A DNA stretch of 64,000 nt from contig JAJRQG010000121.1 in NCBI GenBank assembly GCA_024280395.1, forward strand, positions 1 through 64,000, in the 5' to 3' direction. Within the stretch, counting starts at the first letter, position 1. Each line of letters starts with the position of its first letter. The notes under the pieces were generated by a model. It was not told where the DNA came from and searched no databases. It saw only the letters and a program-made list of their open reading frames with translations. Made by a program: the position numbers and the translations under genes. Below are positions 33,697 through 41,547 of the stretch, piece after piece. The DNA comes from Gammaproteobacteria bacterium. Its GTDB lineage: Bacteria > Pseudomonadota > Gammaproteobacteria > Xanthomonadales > Marinicellaceae.

Positions 33697-34284
33697 ATGA
33701 AAAATATCTATGAAATTGATGGTGTAAAACCCGTGATTGACCCAAGTAGTTATGTACATCCAACTGCAGTTATCATTGGCTCTGTACAAATTGGAAAAAA
33801 TTGTTATATAGGCCCCAATGCATCAGTACGTGGCGATTATGGCACTATAATCTTCGAAAATGGCGTTAATTTCCAAGATGGATGTATAGCACATGGTTTC
33901 CCTAATGGAATTACTCTAATTAAAGAAAACGGGCATATTTCACATGGTGCTGTAATTCACGGCTGTACAATTGGTAAAAATACAATGGTTGGCATCCAGT
34001 CGGTCATCATGGACAATGCACACATTGGAGATGAATGCATGATAGCTGCCTTGTCTTACATCAAACCAAATTTTAAAGCCCCAAACCGCTCAATTGTTGC
34101 AGGAATACCGGCTGTTGTTAAACGTCAAGTAACCGATAAGGAAATACAATGGAAATCAGGTGGCACTAAACTCTACCAACAACTGACCCAAAGAAGTTTA
34201 GCATCTTTGAAAAGTTGTAAACCTTTAACAGATAACTCCCTACAAAAGAAGCTGAACATAAAAAACTTTAAACCACTCAAGTAA
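33697..34284 (+). CDS. paaY: gamma carbonic anhydrase-like hexapeptide protein, PaaY type
   Basis: A left-handed beta-helix protein of 195 residues with hexapeptide repeats. The zinc histidines of the gamma-class carbonic anhydrase fold appear in CIAHGFP, GHISHGAVIHGC. PaaY is a thioesterase that removes dead-end CoA esters in phenylacetate catabolism, and the C-terminal tail (KWKSGGTKLYQQL-like, here EIQWKSGGTKLYQQLTQRS) is shared with PaaY. I start at ATG 33697; a longer open frame upstream runs antisense through paaG and is not credited. Position divergent from paaG-paaH supports the naming. Confidence 0.88.
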   Translation: MKNIYEIDGVKPVIDPSSYVHPTAVIIGSVQIGKNCYIGPNASVRGDYGTIIFENGVNFQDGCIAHGFPNGITLIKENGHISHGAVIHGCTIGKNTMVGIQSVIMDNAHIGDECMIAALSYIKPNFKAPNRSIVAGIPAVVKRQVTDKEIQWKSGGTKLYQQLTQRSLASLKSCKPLTDNSLQKKLNIKNFKPLK

Positions 34285-34285
34285 G

Positions 34286-37200
34286 TTATTGAAATATATT
34301 TTTTGAAATGGCTTTATTTGAAGAAGTCAAAACAAATCCTGCCCAGTAATAAGGGTGGCGATATCTTCGGAACTGTGGTTTAGTGGCGAAATTAACTTTA
34401 GTGGTGTTCAATGCTTCTGAAACATTTCCATTCATGTCTCTTAGGTTTGTATAAAATTCTTTCATAAAGACAGGAGTTGCTCGATCTGAGATAGACCAAA
34501 TTGTACCAATCACAGAATTAACACCTTGAGACAATAACCCACGAGAAAGACTATTAAACCCTTCTCCGTTTATTACCTTGCCTAATGTTGTTTCGCAGCC
34601 ACTAACCACTGCCAAATTGGCTTTAAAAGGCTGATAGAGTATTTCACGCATCGCAAGAAATCCAGGAGCTTCATTATTATTCTCATCTACGATTGATGTT
34701 GCAAGGCCCACATTTTCTATACTTGAATCATTAAAAAATCCATGTGTTGCTATATGTATGATATTTGAATTGCGATTTTTTTCTGATAAAAAATTCTTAT
34801 TTGTTGCTTTTTTTCCACTTAAAATATTAATATCGAATTCTGGAAATATCTGTTGAATAACATTTGCTTCTTCATCGGAATTAGGCAAAGAATCAAACTC
34901 CCAAAGTTTATTGTATTTTGATATGCTTTTTAACAGTGTTTCTTTCTTACTGTTTTTTAAAAAAACTGGGTTTGAAAAAATTGAAATTGTATTAGGCTTA
35001 GTTGGTAACTCAAACTCTGCAAAATAATCGCTTGCAGAATATGTTCTTTCGATATTTATTTTATCCACCAACGGCAAATATTGATCACTATCAGAGCTAA
35101 TATTCATCGATGCATAAGGCAAAAGATTTAAAATGCCGTCAGGTATAATAATAATTTTATTATACTGCCCACTCTTTACCTTATCTAGAGGTAAAATTTT
35201 AGCATAGAATTCATCTTGTAGTTTTGTATTATTAAATCTCTTACTTTTTATATTATCAATTATAGATTTCACCATTCGAGCTAGGTTAGATTCATCTGGC
35301 AAATGCATAACTTTAAAAGATGTTCTATCTATCACAAACACCAGAGCTTGCTTATTACTAATGTAATAACGCAATAACAACTCATTCTCTGCTAGCTTTG
35401 CTTGCACATGATCAACATCTAAGTAATTCAGTTCAACACTATCCGAATATTGATTATCACCATTTAACGCTAAGAAATGTTCTTTAGCCTCATCCGCTTT
35501 ATTCTGCGTTATTGAGTCACTAAGTAAAATAGAATCACGCTCTAGTTTTACATAATTATCAAATGCTTGTTGGATGTCCTGTGATTCTAGTTTATTGATT
35601 TTTGTTGTAGAGCTTTGCCTACTTTCTCGTAAATTTATAGCGTAGTATTTTTCTAGAATTTCAAATGAAGCACGGTATTGTTTTTGTTCAAACAAGGAAG
35701 AAATATGTTTTTCCAATATTTCATTGGCTTGATTTGTCCAGTATAATGCTTGGTCTGATACATTGAACTGTGATCGTATTCTATTAATCAAACCAATTGC
35801 GTTGATAGCTATTTGATTGGCCTCAATAAAATTATTTACAAATAACAAGGAATCAATTTTTAAATTATAGTAGTTTAGTTTTTGCAAGTTAGCCAAATTA
35901 ATTTTTGAAAAGGATATATCCAAGATATCAAAATAAGTCTCAATTTCTAAAGCGTTCTTCTCTAATAATGCTATTTTAGATAGCGACATCAAGATATTGA
36001 ATTCATCAACTGAATGGATTTTTATATCGCTAGCATTAAAATTATTTATGTTTTTATCAAGAATATCTTTATATTTGATTTTCTGATTTCTGCTTAGTAT
36101 TAGAGCTTTAATGTTTTCTTTTTTAGCCTGGGAAAGATTATTATTCTTTAAGTAGTCCAACCCTAACTCAACTAAATTAGATACTAGAAATTTTTTATTG
36201 AATTTATCGAAATATTCAATGCTAGATTTGTGCATATTTATTGCGTCATTAACATCTCCTCTCATCCTTTCAATCGTAGCGATATAACTCATTACTCGAG
36301 AGTATTCTAACTTTGAGCCCAAAATTGTATAAATTTTAATGCTATCTTGATAGTATCTATATGCTCTATCCAAATCCCCCGTTTTTCTATAAGTATTTGC
36401 CAAATTCAAATATATACTGGCTTTAATGAAAGGTTGTAAATTTGGTTTGATGTGTACAATGATTTTTCTAAAATAGGCTTGGGCTTTAACCATATTATTT
36501 AACATCAAATAATTGGATGCCATTTGGTTATATAACAAAAAAAGTCCATCTTTAGATGAAGATTGCATTAAGTTTTCACTGGCGAATTCCAATACCAAAT
36601 TAGACTTTTGATAGTCACCGATTAAAGTGTAATATACTGCTAGCTTATAAAGAATTTTTGATTTAAGATAAAAACTTCCAATTGTATTAAGAGAACTCAA
36701 TGAGTTAATAATGAACTTTTTTCCATCTATCTTCGTATCATTATTGTAGAATGATAATAATGCAATTGTAAAACCATAAGATGCTCTAATTTCCTCAACA
36801 TTAATTTTCCAGTCAATGGATAATTCTCCAGTTTGTTCTAGTACGTCAAGTATTTCTTTAAAAGAATCTTTTGCCAATTGATATGAGCCTAGGTTTAAAA
36901 TTGTTTTGGCTTTCAACCACATGAATAAACGGCTCGTGTTTGTATTGCTTCCTTTGTTTTTTAGTGAGGAAATGTAATTGTTAAGTTTTTGATATTGCTC
37001 TAATTGGTACAATAAACTTGCATACCTAAAACTAATTTCATTCTCATCAAGCTGATAATATGGGTATTTAAAAAAAAAATCCTCTATAAGCAAGAGTGAA
37101 TCAACACTATCTCGATTACCGTAATTATTTATCGAGTAATTATAGATAAATTGATACTTCTCTATATTCTTATCGATAATTTTAATATTTATCTTTGCTT

Positions 37201-37549
37201 TTAACTTAATAACATCGTTATAAATTGGCCGAGCAAACAATTTATATTCATGAGTTGTTTTTTCAGAAGGCAATAATAAATACTCAATCATTCCAACTTC
37301 AGACTCTGTGACTTGATTTGAAATCACTCTATCTTTATTTCTTAATTGTATTTGTATGGGGAGATTGTATTCACTTATTTGTATTAAAGTTTGCTTAGAT
37401 TTATCAGTTTTAAATTCTGATATTAGCTTCCACTCTTTACCGAAACAATTAGTAGATTGTAATAATAAGATAAGAATAAAGAATAAAATATTCAAATATA
37501 GCCTATACAAATGAATGCTTCTATTGTCTATTGCGGAATCCAAAACCAA
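34286..37549 (-). CDS. TPR-CHAT (caspase-like) protein, exported or membrane-anchored
   Basis: A 1087-residue protein. A hydrophobic stretch near 19-37 (LNILFFILILLLQS) looks like a signal or anchor. Residues about 130-690 are helical repeats of TPR type (for example IYLNLANTYRKTGDLDRAYRYYQDS). Residues about 745-1080 form a CHAT domain of the caspase clan, with catalytic H936 (HIATHGFF) and C985 (VVSGCETTLG). The last gene of the sigma-anti-sigma-peroxidase operon, it overlaps the preceding gene by 22 bases. The start is uncertain: the open frame begins with TTG 37549 and no ATG precedes the hydrophobic segment; TTG at 37510 or 37495 is also possible. Its substrate is unknown; the neighbouring proteins are candidates. 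Confidence 0.88.
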   Translation of the reverse strand: MVLDSAIDNRSIHLYRLYLNILFFILILLLQSTNCFGKEWKLISEFKTDKSKQTLIQISEYNLPIQIQLRNKDRVISNQVTESEVGMIEYLLLPSEKTTHEYKLFARPIYNDVIKLKAKINIKIIDKNIEKYQFIYNYSINNYGNRDSVDSLLLIEDFFFKYPYYQLDENEISFRYASLLYQLEQYQKLNNYISSLKNKGSNTNTSRLFMWLKAKTILNLGSYQLAKDSFKEILDVLEQTGELSIDWKINVEEIRASYGFTIALLSFYNNDTKIDGKKFIINSLSSLNTIGSFYLKSKILYKLAVYYTLIGDYQKSNLVLEFASENLMQSSSKDGLFLLYNQMASNYLMLNNMVKAQAYFRKIIVHIKPNLQPFIKASIYLNLANTYRKTGDLDRAYRYYQDSIKIYTILGSKLEYSRVMSYIATIERMRGDVNDAINMHKSSIEYFDKFNKKFLVSNLVELGLDYLKNNNLSQAKKENIKALILSRNQKIKYKDILDKNINNFNASDIKIHSVDEFNILMSLSKIALLEKNALEIETYFDILDISFSKINLANLQKLNYYNLKIDSLLFVNNFIEANQIAINAIGLINRIRSQFNVSDQALYWTNQANEILEKHISSLFEQKQYRASFEILEKYYAINLRESRQSSTTKINKLESQDIQQAFDNYVKLERDSILLSDSITQNKADEAKEHFLALNGDNQYSDSVELNYLDVDHVQAKLAENELLLRYYISNKQALVFVIDRTSFKVMHLPDESNLARMVKSIIDNIKSKRFNNTKLQDEFYAKILPLDKVKSGQYNKIIIIPDGILNLLPYASMNISSDSDQYLPLVDKINIERTYSASDYFAEFELPTKPNTISIFSNPVFLKNSKKETLLKSISKYNKLWEFDSLPNSDEEANVIQQIFPEFDINILSGKKATNKNFLSEKNRNSNIIHIATHGFFNDSSIENVGLATSIVDENNNEAPGFLAMREILYQPFKANLAVVSGCETTLGKVINGEGFNSLSRGLLSQGVNSVIGTIWSISDRATPVFMKEFYTNLRDMNGNVSEALNTTKVNFATKPQFRRYRHPYYWAGFVLTSSNKAISKNIFQ

Positions 37550-37968
37550 TCGGAATAGACTGTTTGTCCCGCACGATCTGTTAAAGTTAGTTTTTCCCTA
37601 TAAAACGTAGGTGCATTATTAGTATCAAATGAAACTTTAATTTCAATGTTTGTAAGTTTATATCCAGATGGACCTAGCGCAATATTAATTGGACTCTGAG
37701 GTATCAAAGTATCTATTTGGTTTGGATCTTCAATAAAATCTATATTCAAAAAAATGATTCTTAATTGGCGCGACCAGTCTGGGTCATTATTTGCTATCTT
37801 AAAATTAAGAATGCGAGCAGAATTCTTTTTTAATTTTAATGAAATTTTATATTTTCCAGAATTCCGATTGGCACTTGGATGATAAGTGCCAATATTTGCT
37901 TTGTGCCCATCTGGAATGATAGAGCCTATACTGTATCCATCTGCTTCGTACCTTGTTATGTTACTCAT
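37528..37968 (-). CDS. unknown small protein in the peroxidase-CHAT operon
   Basis: A 146-residue protein not recognised. The residues alternate in a beta-strand pattern (YKISLKLKKNSARILNFKIANND, shown in part) and the end reads REKLTLTDRAGQTVYSDWFWIPQ. It has no signal peptide, membrane helix or cysteine. It starts 18 bases after the peroxidase stop and overlaps the CHAT gene start, so it is in the same transcript. A beta-sandwich binding domain is a reasonable guess from the pattern, and being a partner or substrate of the CHAT protein is a hypothesis from gene order only. Confidence 0.7.
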   Translation of the reverse strand: MSNITRYEADGYSIGSIIPDGHKANIGTYHPSANRNSGKYKISLKLKKNSARILNFKIANNDPDWSRQLRIIFLNIDFIEDPNQIDTLIPQSPINIALGPSGYKLTNIEIKVSFDTNNAPTFYREKLTLTDRAGQTVYSDWFWIPQ

Positions 37969-37986
37969 GAATATTCCCCTTTTAGT

Positions 37987-39384
37987 TTATTTAAAATTTA
38001 TACAATATCCCATTTTTAATGGATATTTCTTAAAATCTTGTAAATTTGGTAGATTATTTATACCAGAATGACTTGACTCAATTTTGTATTGCTTTTGTTT
38101 TATCTTATCTATAATAACATCATAATGACAATTATTCATCAATTGGTAGTCAAGTAATAATACCGCAGACATAACCTCTGATACAATTATACTGCCAACA
38201 GGCCCAAGCCCAATAGTTTGAGTATTATTTTGGAAAATTTCAGCTTCTTTGAGAATATAAGGCCACAATGGTAATTTTACTAAATCTTCTTTTTGGTAAA
38301 GTTCAGAGCCCAATAAGCTTTTTAACTCATCTATGCTTTCAAGTTCACACCTAGCATCTTCACCAAAAAGCAAAGGTTTTTCTAATTTAAGACCCGCTTC
38401 AATATTAATCTTTCTGATGTCTTCAAATACATCCTTTCCTACTGGAATACTCTTCATAGAATCAACTATATAAGTGTCAATATTTTTCGATTGTTGTGGA
38501 AGTATATGGGTTTCTGGGTTGGCAGATTTAAATTCAAAATTTGCTTCATTGATATTGAAATCATTTTCCAATAAATCAAAAACTTGAAAAAATTTCCCCC
38601 ATGTAATAATAGAATCAACCGGCAAGTTAGAAAGTCCACTATTGAATAAATCTTTTGTTTCAATTCTATTGTGTAAAGTATTTAAACTGTATTCATTTCT
38701 CACCATGGAATGACCAAACCTAAAAGCAGCATGGGAAAATTCTATAGGTACAGTGGTTATCGGGTGGTCATCATTGTAATAAAAAGAAAATCTTTCTCCC
38801 TTTTTAAAATACAAAGAGTAAACTTCATGATGTATGATTTTGGGCAAATAATCATATCTAATGATTTCATGAAATATTTTTATGACTATACTTCTTGCAC
38901 TATCAAGATGGTTGATAACTGATCCATCTAACATTTCTAGTTCAAAGACAATTTTGTTATGAAAGGATTGCCAAAATAAATGTAATTGTGAAATAATAAT
39001 ATTTTCATCATTACGTCTATCTGGAATTAATGCTTTTCCATTAGTATTTCTGATTAAATCTTCATTTAATTTTTCTGTACCGTTTGAAAACCTAGCATTA
39101 CCTAAAATAAATCTTCCTGTTTTGTCGAAGTGTGCTGGTGTGACACCATCTCCATAGATGCTTTTCAAATCAAGATATGCGTTAATTGATTTTCTATCAC
39201 TATGAATTCGTGTACTGGGAACAATATCGTGTGCTATCAATTGCCCTATATAGGTATATCCCGCATCAATTTTATTATCAGACTTTACATTATCCACACT
39301 AACAACATTAGAGATATCTTCTATAAAACTATTTATCTGACATTCATTTAGTTCTCTGTATTTATCAAATAATCGATTTCTCAT
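37987..39384 (-). CDS. animal-type haem peroxidase (cyclooxygenase-peroxidase superfamily)
   Basis: A 465-residue protein with the key residues of the animal haem peroxidase family. Distal H52 is in GQLIAHDIV; the catalytic arginine and haem-linked glutamate are R124 and E127 in PDRRNDEN; HNK at 142-144 follows; proximal H225 is in FRFGHSMV. Near the end GLGPVGSIIVSEVM (about 395-408) matches the family's conserved late helix. The Asp that forms an ester to haem in mammalian enzymes is replaced by A51. No signal peptide is visible, so it may be cytoplasmic or exported with help. Its start overlaps the anti-sigma stop by four bases. Substrate is unknown; peroxide-driven oxidation is the family activity. 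Confidence 0.88.
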   Translation of the reverse strand: MRNRLFDKYRELNECQINSFIEDISNVVSVDNVKSDNKIDAGYTYIGQLIAHDIVPSTRIHSDRKSINAYLDLKSIYGDGVTPAHFDKTGRFILGNARFSNGTEKLNEDLIRNTNGKALIPDRRNDENIIISQLHLFWQSFHNKIVFELEMLDGSVINHLDSARSIVIKIFHEIIRYDYLPKIIHHEVYSLYFKKGERFSFYYNDDHPITTVPIEFSHAAFRFGHSMVRNEYSLNTLHNRIETKDLFNSGLSNLPVDSIITWGKFFQVFDLLENDFNINEANFEFKSANPETHILPQQSKNIDTYIVDSMKSIPVGKDVFEDIRKINIEAGLKLEKPLLFGEDARCELESIDELKSLLGSELYQKEDLVKLPLWPYILKEAEIFQNNTQTIGLGPVGSIIVSEVMSAVLLLDYQLMNNCHYDVIIDKIKQKQYKIESSHSGINNLPNLQDFKKYPLKMGYCINFK

Positions 39385-40001
39385 AATATATTGATACCAT
39401 AATATTGTTCAACAAGATTCGGGCCACTGCTTAGTGATATCTCCCATCTACCATCCATAAATTTATTAGTATTAACGGTAACAGTAATTGAACCATAATT
39501 ATCAGCAACTAATTCAGTGAACTCAATTTGTTGGTTTGAAATTTTCGACTTTATTATCAATGAATATTTTTTAGACATAGAATCGGGGAAAAACCTTAAG
39601 ACTAAACTCTTACTATCACCTGTTCTAACTTCAATAATAGAATTATCTAAGCCTCTTTGTTTTTCAAATTCTATAAAAGTAGCAACAGAACTTTGTACTT
39701 TAGTGTTTGTATTGTTAAACAAGTTGAAAGTCAACAGTCCAACTAATCCATAAGCCAAAAGATGGATTGGTACTAACTTACGACCCGTGAATAAATCTAA
39801 GAAAACAAGTAATGGTTTTTTAACCTGTAAAGTTCTTGGTTCTATTATCATTGCTTGTTTAATCATCAAATCCATCTCTAAATCATCAATAACTTCAGGG
39901 TTATCGACTAACCAAAGTTCAACTTTTTCGGTATCAACATCACTAAGCTTATTTTGTATGTAATTTTGCAACATGGTTTCATCTGGTTTAAAATCCATCA
40001 T
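39381..40001 (-). CDS. probable anti-sigma factor, single-pass membrane protein
   Basis: A 206-residue protein. The N-terminal 65 residues are acidic and helical (MLQNYIQNKLSDVDTEKVE...), like the sigma-binding part of ECF anti-sigma factors but without a zinc HxxxCxxC motif. One membrane helix follows (about 77-95, VPIHLLAYGLVGLLTFNLF), then a C-terminal domain of beta strands facing the other side. The start overlaps the stop of the ECF gene. Sensing by the outer domain and release of the sigma factor is inferred from position and topology. Confidence 0.78.
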   Translation of the reverse strand: MMDFKPDETMLQNYIQNKLSDVDTEKVELWLVDNPEVIDDLEMDLMIKQAMIIEPRTLQVKKPLLVFLDLFTGRKLVPIHLLAYGLVGLLTFNLFNNTNTKVQSSVATFIEFEKQRGLDNSIIEVRTGDSKSLVLRFFPDSMSKKYSLIIKSKISNQQIEFTELVADNYGSITVTVNTNKFMDGRWEISLSSGPNLVEQYYGINIL

Positions 40002-40633
40002 CGCTTAACTCCTTTTAAATATCCATTATCGTAGCTTTCTTTATAAAACAATAGTTTGAGCCTATGTTTTGCACGATACAAAACTCTATCAAAGTGTTCG
40101 TTACTGAGATTTAATTGTTTACAAACAGAAGCTTTATCTATGTCTTCAAAATAAAATTTCAACAAAATATCTTTATCCCTTTGCATCTTTAATTCATCAA
40201 TAATTTTTCTGGTTTTTTTGATTCCATCAAGCCATTCTAAATTAGTAAGGACATCAACATTATCCCTAACGTCTTCTATTAAATTAATTAATTCAGAGTC
40301 TATTGATGACTTGAATTTCTTGTCTTTGCGCAAGTATTCAAATCCAATATTAATAGCAGTAGTACGTAGAAAACCCAGAACTGCTTGGGTTTTTCTAATT
40401 TTCCCTTGTTGTAATTTATTGATCACTAACATAAAACTGTCTTGCACGATATCTTCGTGGTTATTAGATTGTGAAAATTTCTTACGAATGACAAACAACA
40501 ACCACTGGTAATTGATTTTCACAAATTCATTGCTAGCACTTCTATCACCCTGGGTGATTTTCTCAGCCAATTCGCCCGCTAATATTGATTTACTTTTGTT
40601 AGTTACGTTGTTCCCAGAACCTGATATGGTCAT
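39998..40633 (-). CDS. ECF-type RNA polymerase sigma factor
   Basis: A 211-residue sigma-70 family protein of the extracytoplasmic class. Region 2 lies at about 35-105 (NNHEDIVQDSFMLVINKL and GFLRTTAINIGFEYLRKDKK). Region 4 lies at about 145-195 (DILLKFYFEDIDKASVCKQLNLSNEHFDRVLYRAKHRLKLLF in part), with a helix-turn-helix. It heads the operon with anti-sigma, peroxidase, small protein and CHAT protein. A sigma-70-like promoter candidate stands about 120 bases upstream. Whether it also drives its own operon cannot be shown here. Confidence 0.9.
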   Translation of the reverse strand: MTISGSGNNVTNKSKSILAGELAEKITQGDRSASNEFVKINYQWLLFVIRKKFSQSNNHEDIVQDSFMLVINKLQQGKIRKTQAVLGFLRTTAINIGFEYLRKDKKFKSSIDSELINLIEDVRDNVDVLTNLEWLDGIKKTRKIIDELKMQRDKDILLKFYFEDIDKASVCKQLNLSNEHFDRVLYRAKHRLKLLFYKESYDNGYLKGVKR

Positions 40634-40803: not shown

Positions 40804-41547
40804 TTAGTTGAACTGATATTTCATGCTTTTTACCTTCACATTTGGAGGTGTGTTGTTATGGTTTGCAAAATAATCATAGCCTTGTTTTAAATTTTTCCAA
40901 AAATTATACCACGGTGAGTCTTTGTGTTTTTGCATGTTTTCTTTACTCATATGAAAAGGAAAAGCATGTACCCTGAAAAAAACTTGCCCATTATTCAATG
41001 CAGAATTCGCAATGGTATATATTTCTTCAATTTTATTATCGGTCATTGCATAGCATCCAACAGATAAACAATCGCCATGTACCATTAAGGCACTGCCAGT
41101 TCTGTTATGAACCCTATCATATACATTAGGATAACCCAGATTAAAAGACAAATGGTAGCTGCTGTAGGGATTCATTTGATTGGCTTTTACGTAATAAAAA
41201 CCTTCAGGTGCTTTTCCATCGCCTTCTGCTAATTTGGGGCCTAAGCCACCAAAGCCAAATGTACAGATTGGATAGGTCTTGAATAATATGAAGCTATTAT
41301 CATCATTTTCAACCCAAATTTCTAGTTCAGCTTCTTGTTTAAATATTCTGATAAAGATTGAATCACCCAGTTTTAAACCAAGACTTTCAAACTCAGAAAT
41401 TAATTGTGGAGCAAATGATTCAATTACTTTTTTAGAACGCGTACTTGAAGGCGGTATCTCTGACATTGCTGTTTGTGATATTAACATCAAGACAATTGGT
41501 ATTATATTCATCACTGTATAGGACAATTGCTTTTTTTGATGGTTCAA
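40804..41547 (-). CDS. exported L,D-transpeptidase-fold protein (YafK/DpaA-like)
   Basis: A 247-residue periplasmic protein with a YkuD fold. The signal peptide is at about 13-30; the true start may be the internal ATG giving MNIIPIVLML. The catalytic motif is HGDCLSVGCYAM (about 153-164), the H-x3-S-x-GC pattern. Other family words: FKTYPICTFGFGGLGPKLAEGDGKAPEG. The closest relatives I recognise are YafK/DpaA-type enzymes, which in E. coli release Braun lipoprotein from peptidoglycan instead of making 3-3 crosslinks. The gene stands alone; a terminator separates it from the TonB receptor gene upstream. Confidence 0.87.
   Translation of the reverse strand: MNHQKKQLSYTVMNIIPIVLMLISQTAMSEIPPSSTRSKKVIESFAPQLISEFESLGLKLGDSIFIRIFKQEAELEIWVENDDNSFILFKTYPICTFGFGGLGPKLAEGDGKAPEGFYYVKANQMNPYSSYHLSFNLGYPNVYDRVHNRTGSALMVHGDCLSVGCYAMTDNKIEEIYTIANSALNNGQVFFRVHAFPFHMSKENMQKHKDSPWYNFWKNLKQGYDYFANHNNTPPNVKVKSMKYQFN

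Follow-up and report, generated by a model that had tools for sequence, protein, structure and literature searches.

An operon of a sigma factor, a candidate membrane anti-sigma factor and a probably exported CHAT protease, with an animal-type haem peroxidase as payload, recurs in Gammaproteobacteria

What would a caspase/separase-like protease do in an operon that opens with a sigma factor and also encodes an animal-type haem peroxidase? The question is raised by a 64,000-nucleotide stretch of DNA from a gammaproteobacterium of the Marinicellaceae (assembly GCA_024280395.1, contig JAJRQG010000121.1, positions 1 to 64,000; hereafter the window), in which the open reading frame (ORF) listing confirms five minus-strand genes at 34286-40633. 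We call their products, in gene order, SIG, ANTI, POX, X and CHAT. SIG, an extracytoplasmic function (ECF) sigma factor, forms with ANTI and CHAT a conserved core that is wider than the five-gene unit and usually lacks POX, and POX and X are its payload. In the reading that we favour with modest confidence, the unit is a stress switch with an optional payload: acting in the envelope, CHAT would cleave ANTI after an invariant arginine and so free SIG. The features discussed are as follows.

39998..40633, minus strand: SIG, ECF-type sigma factor of 211 residues, first gene of the operon (ORF; NCBIfam sigma70-ECF)
39381..40001, minus strand: ANTI, candidate membrane anti-sigma factor of 206 residues (AlphaFold2 model, overlap with SIG, constant adjacency to SIG)
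39651..39659, minus strand: codons for ANTI residues 115-117 (Q-R-G), with R116 as the predicted P1 residue of a cut between R and G
37987..39384, minus strand: POX, animal-type haem peroxidase of 465 residues (Pfam PF03098, 5.1e-18; conserved residues)
37528..37968, minus strand: X, 146 residues, predicted lipocalin/calycin-like barrel and partner of POX (AlphaFold2, Foldseek, fusions)
34286..37549, minus strand: CHAT, probably exported TPR-CHAT caspase/separase-like protease of 1087 residues (Pfam; TTG start uncertain)

The genes overlap or lie close together, with the sigma gene first and the CHAT gene last, as the initial annotation of this DNA had described. SIG overlaps ANTI and ANTI overlaps POX by 4 bases each, the POX-X gap of 18 bases is the largest, and, with the TTG start of CHAT, X and CHAT share 22 bases. 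CHAT matches the Pfam CHAT profile (PF12770) at 3.9e-49 (168.1 bits vs a cut-off of 24) and carries TPR_12 (1.4e-12), and the Pfam match of POX scores 65.4 bits vs a cut-off of 25. SIG scores narrowly above the NCBIfam sigma70-ECF cut-off (TIGR02937; 43.6 vs 42.9 bits, 2.3e-11) and slightly below that of Pfam Sigma70_r2, and a profile of its group retrieves the solved ECF sigma factors SigH, SigW and SigE. Neither X nor ANTI has any Pfam match.

A search for conserved neighbourhoods, which the initial annotation had proposed, found the combination to be common in related genomes. With one genome counted per species, and the window and further genomes included, about 32 gammaproteobacterial loci combine all five families, in no fewer than three gene orders; these loci belong to Alteromonadaceae, Steroidobacteraceae, Hahella, Marinicella, Lysobacterales and others. 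About 22 of them share the window's order SIG-ANTI-POX-X-CHAT, Steroidobacter-type loci read POX-X-CHAT-SIG-ANTI, and at four loci POX-X-CHAT faces SIG-ANTI. Among the 151 genomes of the window's order, POX was found at 13 places in 10 genomes, and 8 of these places have both SIG and CHAT no more than 6 kb away; when larger regions were read and GTDB genomes were scanned with a POX profile, POX adjoined a CHAT protein at 26 loci. Most of the more distant POX matches, in other phyla, have no CHAT. Several of the loci lie on draft or metagenome contigs, ORF starts throughout are approximate, and ORFs in high-GC genomes were called with a codon-position score. Because the five families recur together at so many loci, their arrangement is not due to chance: the unit is a real operon kept in many marine and soil bacteria.

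The wider core is apparent within the same 151 genomes. A SIG profile matches 50 of them at 1e-15 (and 6 of 369 genomes in the class at 1e-20), and for 46 of the 68 strong matches a CHAT gene is found no more than 8 kb away; of the remainder, several sit at contig ends. The association far exceeds chance: CHAT is present in 44 of 45 SIG genomes vs 25 of the other 106 (Fisher 5e-19, without correction for relatedness). With the ANTI profile, 45 genomes match, and those without a CHAT match are that of locus L148, where the TPR-CHAT gene is cut by the contig end, and G023, where ANTI matches at E 7e-4 in a 468-residue frame. CHAT directly follows ANTI at L127, L129, L134, L137, L149 and L151, is separated from it by a secreted-looking protein of about 200 residues at L126, L128 and L144, and precedes or faces the SIG-ANTI pair at L105-L107, L138, L139 and L154.

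The surroundings of this core vary. Small, diverse proteins lie beside CHAT in units without POX (L126, L127, L129, L134, L137, L138, L139, L144, L151 and L154); several end in tails such as DGTGTGG, SHDGTIHP and GGWGGHG, and none of those scanned had a Pfam match above cut-off. A trypsin-like protein adjoins at L129, and a similar one was seen by eye at L137. At L157 (7638-11786), in the window's family group, the gene after SIG-ANTI encodes, instead of CHAT, an 850-residue protein kinase-TPR protein that scores against PADLOC defence kinases such as PD-T4-6. The neighbours of a SIG relative at L108 (8181-14428) include a Thoeris-like TIR protein (PADLOC ThsB, 1e-50) and a DUF4062 protein. 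At L018 (13719-15307) and L019 (12877-14475), another ECF sigma gene diverges from the SIG-ANTI pair, and L018 also has a subtilase gene upstream of POX.

ANTI is predicted to cross the membrane once, with a helical domain in the cytosol and a beta domain in the periplasm. Its AlphaFold2 model (predicted local distance difference test score, pLDDT, 83.5) has an N-terminal helical domain at residues 8-51 (helices 8-15, 21-33 and 35-51), a transmembrane helix at 80-96 and a C-terminal beta domain, and the sequence has one hydrophobic segment near residues 75-95. The region of the fourth helix, the sigma2 binder of class I anti-sigma domains (ASDI), is modelled with low confidence. A Foldseek search with the beta domain returned no strong known relative beyond Ig-like sandwiches. 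From these features ANTI is a candidate anti-sigma factor, predicted to bind and inhibit SIG.

The most constant feature of its predicted periplasmic part is a single arginine. The R116 column is Arg in all 73 aligned ANTI rows and, as the putative P1 residue, in all 69 distinct segments left after removal of a SIG fragment, a truncated row and duplicates. The following position, P1', is a small residue in 66 of the 69 segments (Ser 31, Gly 28, Ala 7), and P4 is Glu or Asp in 32; a substrate role of this stretch, comparable to that of the separase E-x-x-R motif, is putative. R116 lies within a loop (113-121) between two strands of the model, and the invariant Arg follows the hydrophobic segment at a distance of about 17 to 46 residues across the family, and of 24 in the window's ANTI.

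In CHAT, H936 and C985 are present and the His/Cys pair is invariant in 60 of 60 aligned relatives, so CHAT is very likely an active peptidase. Hydropathy and inspection point to a hydrophobic, signal-peptide-like N-terminal segment in 60 of 61 CHAT proteins, some of which have lipobox-like ends such as LAGC or LTAC, and CHAT is thus probably exported and located in the envelope outside the inner membrane. In the PDB, a profile of the CHAT domain matches Csx29 (7zoq, E 2.7e-5). CHAT proteins are separase-like bacterial peptidases, separase itself cuts after ExxR, and the substrates of CHAT proteases are often encoded nearby (PMC9729208).

POX and X, by comparison, have no signal-peptide-like N terminus and are predicted to be cytosolic. 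The initial annotation had listed H52, R124, E127 and H225 of POX, together with the CHAT pair, as retained; all are present in the window, and distal H52 and R124 and proximal H225 are invariant in 26 of 26 POX relatives. E127 was rejected as a conserved catalytic Glu, as it varies among these relatives (E 14, D 5, I 3, Q 2, G 1, A 1). We also rejected a role as a fatty-acid dioxygenase: cyclooxygenase has Tyr three residues before the proximal His, and this position is Arg 222 in POX, invariant in 26 of 26. Residue 51, the position of the haem-ester Asp, is Ala or Ser in all 26 relatives, and since the Glu is variable as well, the haem is expected to be bound non-covalently. Families 4 and 7 of the superfamily in which the roles of the haem-ester motif have been described likewise depart from the ester signature (PMC4420034), so this loss is a difference within the superfamily and does not exclude POX from it. 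The peroxidases of the module form one clade, on one side of a branch of a 76-row tree (SH-aLRT 91, by a quick method). Free-standing-type peroxidases with a DHD motif lie near CHAT and SIG at L020 and L024, outside this clade, and represent either a second recruitment or coincidence.

X is best regarded as the partner of POX, because an X-type ORF lies between POX and CHAT in the module loci that were read and because Paraglaciecola marina (L025) and Agaribacter marinus (L039) have it as a C-terminal fusion to POX. It is very divergent: W65 and W143 alone are unchanged across 20 sequences, and some X ORFs were assigned by position and end motif. The profile search of this 146-residue protein that the initial annotation had suggested gave nothing in Pfam, and the resemblance of its model (pLDDT 84) to lipocalins is weak, with Foldseek probabilities of 0.99-1.00 but E values of about 1.3e-3 and TM scores below 0.5, and VIA Z scores of at most 7.6 among many barrel families. 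The model weakly suggests a lipocalin/calycin-like barrel, and a role in binding a small ligand or haem would be a guess.

We infer the following course of events, in which cleavage by CHAT, release of the sigma factor, autoregulation, the signal and the role of POX and X are all conditional. At rest, ANTI would keep SIG at the inner membrane. A periplasmic signal, probably sensed via the TPR/N-terminal part of CHAT, would switch CHAT on, and CHAT would cleave ANTI after R116. General intramembrane and cytosolic proteases would trim the remaining stub of ANTI and free SIG, which would then transcribe its targets, including its own operon if autoregulated, and freshly made POX and X may handle or exploit peroxide in the cytosol. 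Encoding SIG and its releasing protease in one operon could yield positive feedback. Release of the sigma factor on a surface signal was one of two mechanisms offered by the initial annotation, and it has emerged as the better supported one, given that ANTI is predicted to be a transmembrane protein, that CHAT looks exported and that the core is kept without POX. The predicted compartments make the topology of CHAT and ANTI sensible.

Several observations weigh against this scheme. The cut of ANTI by CHAT is predicted from sequence, and ANTI itself was assigned by position, helices and topology rather than by a Pfam match. The Asp in the S1 pocket of separase was sought by alignment as support for Arg specificity of CHAT and is absent: D2151, which binds the P1 Arg in separase, aligns with P1026, a position where most family members have Ala, and the separase pocket therefore offers no argument for Arg specificity. 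D1022, four residues before P1026, is invariant and E894 is present in 58 of 61 proteins; both are candidate acidic S1 residues, although that is a guess. Csx29, too, is without the separase Asp that reads Arg (PMC9729208). No bipartite motif of a shared ECF promoter was found upstream of the operons, which leaves autoregulation unsupported; GAACA occurs upstream at 26 of 60 loci, vs a shuffled mean of 17 and maximum of 24, a slight excess, and several of the upstream stretches extend into coding sequence. Finally, ANTI keeps its Arg without an adjacent CHAT at L146, L157 and L162. There, CHAT would have to act in trans or another protease would make the cut, and R116 could instead have a structural role.

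The last point leads to the strongest rival, in which CHAT is a sensor or attacks another envelope target, another protease releases ANTI, and R116 is structural. The CHAT-less SIG-ANTI pairs beside efflux-type genes (L146) and the kinase-TPR gene (L157), the missing separase Asp and the position of the motif after a predicted strand of the beta domain would all fit such an arrangement. It accounts less readily for the near-constant presence of CHAT in SIG-ANTI genomes, for the small residue that follows the Arg almost throughout, as at a cleavage site, and for the invariance of the catalytic pair of CHAT. We regard this rival as unlikely.

We also considered a defence or programmed-death unit, in which envelope damage, for example by phage, would trigger CHAT and the cytosolic peroxidase would be a toxic effector. 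CHAT proteases do act in Craspase (PMC10028731) and with gasdermins (as cited in PMC9729208), SIG relatives lie near the Thoeris-like TIR protein at L108 or beside the kinase-TPR protein at L157, and the locus is accessory and at a synteny break. Yet none of the five window proteins matches PADLOC 2023 at E <0.001 (the best, to a TPR model, is 0.011), no phage record holds POX, and POX may equally detoxify peroxide, and we judge a defence role improbable. Still less probable is the other mechanism of the initial annotation, that CHAT processes POX or X to activate or release the peroxidase or its partner. The common operon, the tendency of CHAT substrates to be encoded nearby (PMC9729208) and the two X-POX fusions, which mark the two as a pair, would suit it, but it places an export-type protease and its cytosolic substrates in different compartments, most SIG-ANTI-CHAT units lack POX and X, and X is too divergent for a common cut site to be visible. 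Chance juxtaposition of the five genes, whose only point is that two of them have no database names, is effectively refuted by the recurrence of the same families in several orders and by the single clade of module peroxidases.

The genes flanking the operon vary. The CHAT stop lies one base from that of a convergent gamma-carbonic-anhydrase-like (PaaY-like) gene (34284-34286), and an L,D-transpeptidase-like gene lies upstream of SIG (40804-41547; on another contig in G028). Two congeneric genomes carry different genes after the PaaY-like gene, which places the operon at a synteny break. An origin from a mobile element was considered and not adopted; no integrase search was made. Plasmids gave only distant peroxidases (33 records, all below 60% identity, the best about 29%).

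Beyond this locus, the favoured scheme of ANTI cleavage and SIG release would extend to a family of CRISPR-independent envelope signalling systems, in which an exported CHAT has the dedicated role of making the first cut in a transmembrane anti-sigma factor, at one conserved Arg-Ser/Gly bond, with exchangeable payloads. We put this generalization forward tentatively, as a possibility somewhat short of probable. Were it to hold, ECF sigma factors would be under the control of caspase/separase-type proteolysis outside CRISPR as well, and the link between an animal-type haem peroxidase and a protease in these bacteria would be explained, the peroxidase being one of the payloads that a general switch can carry. 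For many CHAT proteases the substrate is not known; here, the invariant partner residue offers a single, directly testable cut site.

Searches of openly accessible papers turned up no description of the unit, and the 2021 ECF re-classification could already list a CHAT-linked gammaproteobacterial group. The statement of the initial annotation that no system of this exact composition has been described thus holds in the searchable papers, but links between CHAT proteins and sigma factors are known from Craspase (PMC10028731) and ECF54 (PMC8999054). EACC2-caspase neighbourhoods combine a caspase, an ECF sigma factor and a TPR protein (Kaur et al. 2021, PMC8195603) and resemble the present unit in bringing a caspase-fold peptidase together with the other two; as described, they have DUF1822 as the TPR protein and no anti-sigma/POX/X composition is reported for them, and no EACC2 search was made here. 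POX shares the animal-type signature, the distal His/Arg and the proximal His with the bacterial short peroxicins of the peroxidase-cyclooxygenase superfamily (PMC4420034), whereas the ester Asp of their GQxxDHD motif is Ala or Ser in the module POX and the second ester Glu is not conserved.

Two further systems with ECF sigma factors offer comparisons. Actinobacterial ECF54 is reported to have CHAT, subtilase and carboxypeptidase genes nearby without an anti-sigma factor (review PMC8999054), and proteolysis has been proposed as its control (PMC8999054, citing Casas-Pastor 2021 and Huang 2015). CHAT in a conserved neighbourhood is common to both; by description, ECF54 is actinobacterial and lacks an anti-sigma factor, whereas the units reported here are gammaproteobacterial with one beside SIG. 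The RseA/DegS/RseP pathway also has an ECF sigma factor, a membrane anti-sigma factor with a cytosolic helical domain and a periplasmic first cut, which is predicted here. In that pathway the first protease, DegS, is a serine protease, whereas in the present unit it would be an operon-encoded cysteine peptidase of the caspase/separase type.

The closest described logic, by analogy, is that of Craspase (type III-E CRISPR), in which the TPR-CHAT protease Csx29 cuts an inhibitor of a sigma factor (PMC10028731). In both cases a TPR-CHAT protease is encoded with an ECF-type sigma factor (CASP-sigma/RpoE in Craspase) and a protein that holds it (Csx30; PMC10028731) or, for ANTI, is predicted to do so. 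The systems differ in that Csx29 is bound to gRAMP in the cytosol whereas CHAT looks exported, in that ANTI is a transmembrane protein, and in that ANTI is predicted to be cut after Arg whereas Csx30 is cut between residues 427 and 429 (D. ishimotonii). No Cas7-11 (gRAMP) or CRISPR genes occur in the operon or the nearest flanking ORFs; a genome-wide Cas7-11 search was not made. If the cut of ANTI by CHAT is real, it would add a class of first protease for anti-sigma factors, and the wider family would amount to a version of Craspase's sigma release that works without CRISPR, and plausibly to the evolutionary background of Craspase.

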